Made by a program: the position numbers and the translations under genes
Part shown: positions 10,130 through 11,715 of the stretch, one piece after another
How the letters are laid out: every line of letters begins with the position of its first letter
How positions within the stretch are numbered: position 1 is the first letter of the stretch
NCBI GenBank assembly: GCA_021779995.1
Contig: JAJXZP010000024.1
Span: 1-34,454, forward strand
Direction of reading: 5' to 3'
DNA: 34,454 nucleotides
From: a bacterium
GTDB lineage: Bacteria > Spirochaetota > Spirochaetia > Treponematales > Rectinemataceae
Notes under the pieces: model-generated
Told to the model about the DNA's origin: nothing
What the model saw: only the letters and a program-made list of their open reading frames with translations
Database searches by the model: none

Positions 10130-10155
10130 TTTCAAAAGTCAAAGGACTTTTGAAA
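10130..10155 (-). promoter_or_regulatory. Hairpin/operator-like inverted repeat in SBP leader
   Basis: Perfect 11-bp inverted repeat tttcaaaagtc (10130-10140) - aaag - gacttttgaaa (10145-10155), 32 nt upstream of the SBP start codon. Confidence 0.6.
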
Positions 10156-10345: not shown

Positions 10346-10407
10346 TCCTGTCTCCCGCCCCGGACGCCAGGATGCACCGAAAGGACGCCTGCCGGGCGTC
10401 AGGTAGC

Positions 10408-10436
10408 TTGATGCTCCCGCTCTCCTGCCATAAAAT
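10408..10436 (+). promoter_or_regulatory. Candidate sigma70-type promoter for the AraC-family gene
   Basis: TTGATG (10408-10413), 17-nt spacer, TAAAAT (10431-10436). Confidence 0.5.
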
Positions 10437-10454
10437 CCTTGACGGAGGCCTCCG

Positions 10455-11357
10455 ACGGACAACCATAAGAGTTTCTTCCGGTATCTGACCTGCAGCGAGG
10501 AAGACGAAAAATGGAGCATCGTCTGCACCGACGCCGGACGGGCGGAAATCGAACCCCGAACAGTCTATCCGCCGAACCTGGAATCCCATCCGCGCCGCTT
10601 CAAGCCCGTGGCCACCGGCCGAATCCTGGACGAATACCAGATTCTCTACATCACGAAAGGTGCCGGATTTTTCGAGAGCGACGCGGCCAGCCGCAGGGTC
10701 GGGGAGGGGACGGTCATGCTTCTGTTCCCCGGTGTCCGCCACGTCTACAAACCCGATTTCGAGGTCGGGTGGACCGAATATTGGGTCGGCTGCCGAGGAG
10801 CCTACGTCGACAACCTCATCGCCCAGGGCTTCATCTCGGCGACGCGTCCCGTGCTGGACATCGGGCTCGATAATCGCGTGCTCGACCTGTTCTCGCGGAT
10901 CCTCGACCTGGTCCGCGACCAGGAGCCGCTCTATCAGATCCGGGCCGGCTCCCTCATCCTCGCCCTCATGGCGGAAATCCTGTCATCCGTGCGCAAGGCG
11001 TCGCTGTCCTCCAGCTCCGAACGGCTCGTGCAGAAGGCCAAGTTCTTCATGGAGGAGCATATCTACGGGGAAATCAACCTGCCGGCCGTCTGCGAAGCCC
11101 TCGGCGTCAGCCCGTCGCACCTCAACGAGGTATTCAAGGCCTACACGGCCATGACCCCGTACCAGTATTTCATCAGCATCAAGATTCAAAAGGCGAAGGA
11201 ACTCCTCACGGAAGGCGACCCGGTCGTAAAGGGCATTGCCTACCGCCTCGGCTTCAAAGACGAATACTATTTTTCCCGGCTCTTCAAGTTGAAGACGGGC
11301 GTTTCGCCCTCCAAATGGAGCGTCAGCGCTCCGATCCCCGTCGATTCCGGATCATAG
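10455..11357 (+). CDS. AraC family transcriptional regulator; putative ACG start codon
   Basis: In-frame sequence upstream of the listed GTG start (10608) reads T/M-DNHKSFFRYLTCSEEDEKWSIVCTDAGRAEIEPRTVYPPNLESHPRRFKPVATGRILDEYQILYITKGAGFFES, like a sugar-locus AraC N-terminal domain; GGAGG at 10444-10448 lies 6 nt before ACG 10455; C-terminal HTH INLPAVCEALGVSPSHLNEVFKAYTAMTPYQYFISIKIQKAKELL...AYRLGFKDEYYFSRLFKLKTGVSPSKW. In-frame TGA at 10440-10442. Confidence 0.85.
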   Translation, partial: TDNHKSFFRYLTCSEEDEKWSIVCTDAGRAEIEPRTVYPPNLESHPRRFKPVATGRILDEYQILYITKGAGFFESDAASRRVGEGTVMLLFPGVRHVYKPDFEVGWTEYWVGCRGAYVDNLIAQGFISATRPVLDIGLDNRVLDLFSRILDLVRDQEPLYQIRAGSLILALMAEILSSVRKASLSSSSERLVQKAKFFMEEHIYGEINLPAVCEALGVSPSHLNEVFKAYTAMTPYQYFISIKIQKAKELLTEGDPVVKGIAYRLGFKDEYYFSRLFKLKTGVSPSKWSVSAPIPVDSGS

Positions 11358-11555: not shown

Positions 11556-11715
11556 TGTTTCCGCGAAGTGAGTATCAACCCGCTCGAGCCAATCGTGAAT
11601 GGACAATTCAATTTCGAGGATGCAATAAACAATCCGTCGAGGTACGACATGACGGGCCGGGCGCCAGGCAATCTCTGAATCGGCGATCGGATCGCCGACA
11701 TCCGACAGAAAGCTC

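Follow-up and report, generated by a model that had tools for sequence, protein, structure and literature searches.

A candidate ACG start codon behind a Shine-Dalgarno sequence in an AraC-family regulator of a likely L-rhamnose cluster in an uncultured spirochaete

Introduction

Initiation of translation at ACG is a known, rare event. In one reporter study in E. coli, ACG was among a group of codons giving 0.1-1.5% of the activity of ATG (PMC6925171), and hence a real ACG gene would be weakly expressed. Among the carbohydrate regulators of Enterobacteriaceae, non-ATG starts are enriched, and the start codon of lacI has measured fitness effects, in a study that leaves ACG unmentioned (PMC11445065). 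Among the titles listed in searches on natural bacterial ACG starts, no case was evident. In Leptospira interrogans, another spirochaete, abundant leaderless transcripts have been mapped (PMC5243855).

Here we describe an AraC-family regulator gene for which ACG is the proposed start codon. It lies in a window of 34,454 nucleotides, this being the whole stretch of DNA that was analysed, from the 3.45-Mb draft genome (334 contigs) of an uncultured spirochaete, the sole assembly of its genus in the comparison. The gene was compared with an orthologue set of 44 distinct sequences besides itself.

Results

The frame can be read directly from the DNA. A TGA at 10440-10442 is followed by GGAGG at 10444-10448, a 6-nt gap at 10449-10454, ACG at 10455-10457 and then TDNHKSFFRYLTCSEEDEKW; the 51 codons from this ACG to the GTG at 10608 contain no in-frame ATG, GTG or TTG. 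The coordinates of the TGA, the GGAGG, the ACG and the GTG, the last as the next canonical start, had been given exactly in the first-pass annotation. The frame is open to its natural end, with the stop at 11355-11357. Its naming as an AraC regulator was also correct, as the 300 residues from the ACG match both AraC_binding (PF02311, the N-terminal ligand-binding domain; 2.1e-17, 63.6 bits against a cut-off of 21.1) and, in the C-terminal part, HTH_18 (PF12833; 3.6e-20, 72.5 bits against a cut-off of 33.6). The features of the gene itself are:

10440-10442, plus strand: in-frame TGA closing the frame upstream, at the column of the ATG in most orthologues
10455-10457, plus strand: ACG, the proposed and unproven start codon
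10455-11357, plus strand: AraC-family regulator gene, 300 aa from the ACG, identified by Pfam AraC_binding and HTH_18 and by orthologues
10608-10610, plus strand: GTG, the first canonical in-frame start, use of which would remove the conserved N-terminus

Two ORFs flagged as start-less near their own 5' ends were rejected, each being a long open frame that lies upstream of a gene with an apparently ordinary ATG.

The spirochaete orthologues are mostly 45-67% identical to the protein overall, in alignments that cover the N-terminal stretch, and conservation of the frame runs from about residue 7 onward. The nearest named orthologue (L009, from a Spirochaetaceae MAG, 67% identical) has its ATG five codons upstream of the ACG column. 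The suggestion that real domain sequence lies 5' of GTG 10608 proved sound: the 51 N-terminal residues align with the spirochaete orthologues, and must therefore belong to a frame that begins upstream of the GTG. A shortened regulator starting at this GTG would have the first canonical in-frame start of the frame, but it would lack a Shine-Dalgarno sequence, and would have lost the block FFRYLT.SEEDE.W...CT.AG...YPP...HP, which, itself or as a close variant, precedes the position of GTG 10608 in full-length orthologues. Such a protein is highly improbable, and the GTG was rejected as the sole start. Orthologues that all begin at the GTG, without the 51 residues, are thus not what the comparison found. 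Decay to a pseudogene was likewise rejected: the frame runs to its natural end, and the protein deviates at only one of 58 near-invariant columns, most intact orthologues deviating at none or one; no decay of the gene is visible. L022 (1299-2238), an orthologue from a different draft genome within the family, is split over two reading frames.

The sequence directly upstream of the ACG has the appearance of a ribosome-binding site:

10444-10448, plus strand: Shine-Dalgarno sequence GGAGG, 6 nt before the ACG, of a kind enriched at starts genome-wide (12.8% versus 0.56%)
10443-10454, no strand assigned: perfect 12-bp palindrome CGGAGGCCTCCG, read from the sequence, unmentioned in the first-pass annotation and containing the Shine-Dalgarno sequence

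That GGAGG sits exactly 6 nt before the ACG, as first reported, was confirmed, and such spacing is enriched at starts in this genome. In a sample of ~219 kb, GGAGG lay 4-10 nt upstream of 14 of 109 gene starts (12.8%, an approximate figure, these starts being assigned by a simple rule) and of 7 of 1240 internal ATG or ACG codons (0.56%), making it ~23-fold commoner at start distance before the starts of this sample than before internal codons. Of the three near-cognate codons in the open stretch, ACG 10455 alone has a strong Shine-Dalgarno sequence at a good distance. For that number of codons, the internal rate and the base composition give an estimated chance of ~1-3% for a well-placed GGAGG. 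The position of the motif within the palindrome means that GGAGG may be there for a different reason, for example as part of a protein-binding site. No hairpin hiding the Shine-Dalgarno sequence was found, since shuffled sequences fold as strongly as this RNA (z 0.8).

The orthologues bear on the start in both directions. In 42 of the 44, an ATG lies in the range from codon -8 to codon +4 relative to the ACG column, which counts against ACG initiation; of the remaining two, L050 has its ATG at codon -11 and L131 a GTG at codon -7. A need for a non-canonical start was seen in none of the 44. In an ungapped alignment the ATG is most often at codon -4, where the window has TGA 10440, five codons before the ACG, while one genus (L015 and L017-L021) has its ATG at codon -1, two codons upstream. 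Comparing orthologues for an ATG at the ACG codon itself, as had been proposed, therefore located it elsewhere in most cases, and the claim that the ACG marks the expected start position holds only in part: ACG 10455 is within the range of known orthologue starts, yet not in the usual column. The starts of L015 and L017-L021 are mostly ATG GAN AAY (ATG GAC AAT in L021, ATG GAG AAC in L018), which would resemble the ACG GAC AAC of the window if two codons of a variable linker were missing.

The usual column raises an explanation absent from the three options first listed (true ACG initiation, an ATG-to-ACG mutation or a sequencing error), namely a small insertion or deletion at the 5' end, whether an assembly flaw or a recent mutation; one draft assembly proves none of the four. 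The former start would then have been upstream, near the column of the relatives, with the ACG and GGAGG incidental. The ATG that most relatives have five codons upstream, in a column that is TGA in the window, is as this predicts, and were the stretch to differ by one base, translation from the out-of-frame TTG at 10439 would reach the FF motif after the usual count of residues. Frame lesions also occur in a few family members from other draft genomes, and the -10 box and the FF motif are slightly close together, at 36 nt in the window versus usually 37-45 nt in relatives. Set against this, the well-placed GGAGG would be left to chance, and TTG 10439, which follows the -10 box by just 2 nt, probably lies beyond the bounds of the transcript. 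Nor does codon usage clearly favour the TTG, as the ACG frame and the out-of-frame reading differ by only a few bits. Within the regulator frame, the four codons that precede the ACG do not look coding (-4.8 bits), and those from the ACG onward are neutral to positive (+0.2 to +2.1 bits), a weak signal, from few codons, in favour of the ACG. An insertion or deletion is rated as unlikely.

The promoter places the Shine-Dalgarno sequence close to the predicted 5' end of the transcript:

10408-10436, plus strand: TTGATG-17-TAAAAT, the promoter predicted for the regulator gene, with 9/12 consensus matches and positioned as in relatives

Two promoter matches were found in the region, versus 0.2 expected, and at least a 5/6 match to the -10 box precedes the FF motif by 30-60 nt in 32 of 45 sequences (the window included), versus 10.5 by shuffling. 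From the promoter spacing, transcription of the regulator is predicted to start at ~10442-10445. Many of the relatives L009-L024 and L118-L131 have a TTGNNN-17-TATAAT-like promoter with an ATG 5-9 nt after the -10 box, and look leaderless. The ACG of the window is 18 nt behind TAAAAT, rather than the ~7 nt after a -10 box that would mark a leaderless start. In the genus with the later ATG, the gap after the -10 box is 13-15 nt and the leader is purine-rich, with AGGAG in L018; this layout of -10 box and short leader appears similar to the GGAGG-6-ACG GAC AAC of the window, which would favour ACG.

The neighbouring genes point to sugar uptake and catabolism. The regulator is accompanied by a divergent sugar-binding protein, an ABC ATPase, permeases and an aldose epimerase, and downstream lie a class II aldolase-family protein and RhaA, the L-rhamnose isomerase (9e-168). 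RhaA also adjoins two of the relatives, and arabinose/fucose-isomerase-like genes adjoin two others. The gene is hence likely to be an L-rhamnose regulator. Direct repeats of ATGGA type, 21 bp apart and in some cases in triplicate, occur in the araC promoters of relatives (24 of 45 promoters; 0.05 in shuffles), with 27 pairs at exactly 21 bp, and are probably an AraC-type operator, for which such repeats are expected. The araC promoter of the window itself has no such 21-bp pair; the best match in the whole window is instead between araC and rhaA:

11599-11630, plus strand: candidate tandem operator ATGGACAATTC / ATGCAATAAAC, 21 bp apart, identified with the motif from relatives

This pair scores 17/22, versus 13-16 in 20 shuffles. 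Its position before rhaA suggests that a target site has been retained, which argues mildly for a regulator still in use. Two further repeats were observed in the region. GGACGCC occurs at 10362-10368 and 10383-10389, 21 bp apart between the divergent promoters, and could be a diverged operator, though the statistics are weak. A perfect inverted repeat, TTTCAAAAGTC-N4-GACTTTTGAAA, is at 10130-10155, ~30 nt upstream of the minus-strand gene for the sugar-binding protein.

Discussion

Taking the sequence as it stands, the best single reading is that translation initiates at ACG 10455, weakly and possibly natively, to which we assign a probability of roughly 0.45; the ordinary flaws, summed, are about as likely. 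Firstly, a Shine-Dalgarno sequence is present at the proper distance. Secondly, the frame has no usable canonical start. The product would be an intact AraC-family regulator of a cluster for L-rhamnose uptake and catabolism. The promoter at 10408-10436 would give a transcript in which a leader of ~10-13 nt has GGAGG at its 5' end or close to it. This Shine-Dalgarno sequence would recruit the 30S subunit, with the initiator tRNA mispairing with the ACG. The regulator, needed in few copies, would thus be made at a low level. A weak start is plausible for a carbohydrate regulator by the parallel with Enterobacteriaceae, which is not proof of ACG. That the ACG is moreover native is possible though doubtful: in a lineage with relatives whose ATG transcripts look leaderless, the regulator would have shifted to a Shine-Dalgarno sequence that opens a very short leader, and its weak start codon would set a low dose of rhamnose regulator.

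The same evidence would suit an ordinary start in which one base has changed. The organism, or most of its population, may have ATG, with the C at 10456 being a flaw of sequencing or consensus, or else an allele that recently lost its start and was captured in the assembly. The Shine-Dalgarno sequence, spacing, intact protein and gene context all resemble those of an ordinary start, the orthologues start with ATG, and the source is a draft in 334 contigs; but there is no direct sign of error, and consensus substitutions are rare per base. We judge an altered ATG to be unlikely, to about the same degree as an insertion or deletion, with the remaining probability, beyond the explanations already weighed, left to other causes. 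A native ACG and a flaw of sequence or assembly cannot be told apart from one draft genome alone.

Either outcome would be informative. If the ACG is used, this is a natural bacterial start codon of a type that gene finders normally miss, in a regulator whose dose probably matters; genes with such starts are truncated or missed in annotation. If it is not, the locus is an example of a seemingly exotic start produced by a flaw in a draft genome. Promoters and leaders, when compared, further point to a switch between leaderless and Shine-Dalgarno-led initiation within this regulator family, a testable example of changing translation signals.

Many of the araC relatives resemble the leaderless transcripts of Leptospira interrogans (PMC5243855) in having a -10 box 5-9 nt before the ATG, whereas the window gene appears instead to have a short leader bearing a Shine-Dalgarno sequence. 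Like lacI, cra and mlc, which have GTG starts (PMC11445065), it would combine a weak start with a role in the control of sugar use; however, the starts named in that study are canonical alternatives such as GTG, whereas the ACG proposed here is much weaker in the E. coli reporter (PMC6925171). It shares with the AraC/XylS sugar regulators the AraC_binding and HTH_18 domains, and its neighbours RhaA, the class II aldolase-family protein and a sugar ABC transporter, while many of its relatives have 21-bp tandem half-sites in their own promoters. By gene context it is RhaS/RhaR-like, and it differs from the AraC/XylS sugar regulators in having no canonical start codon.
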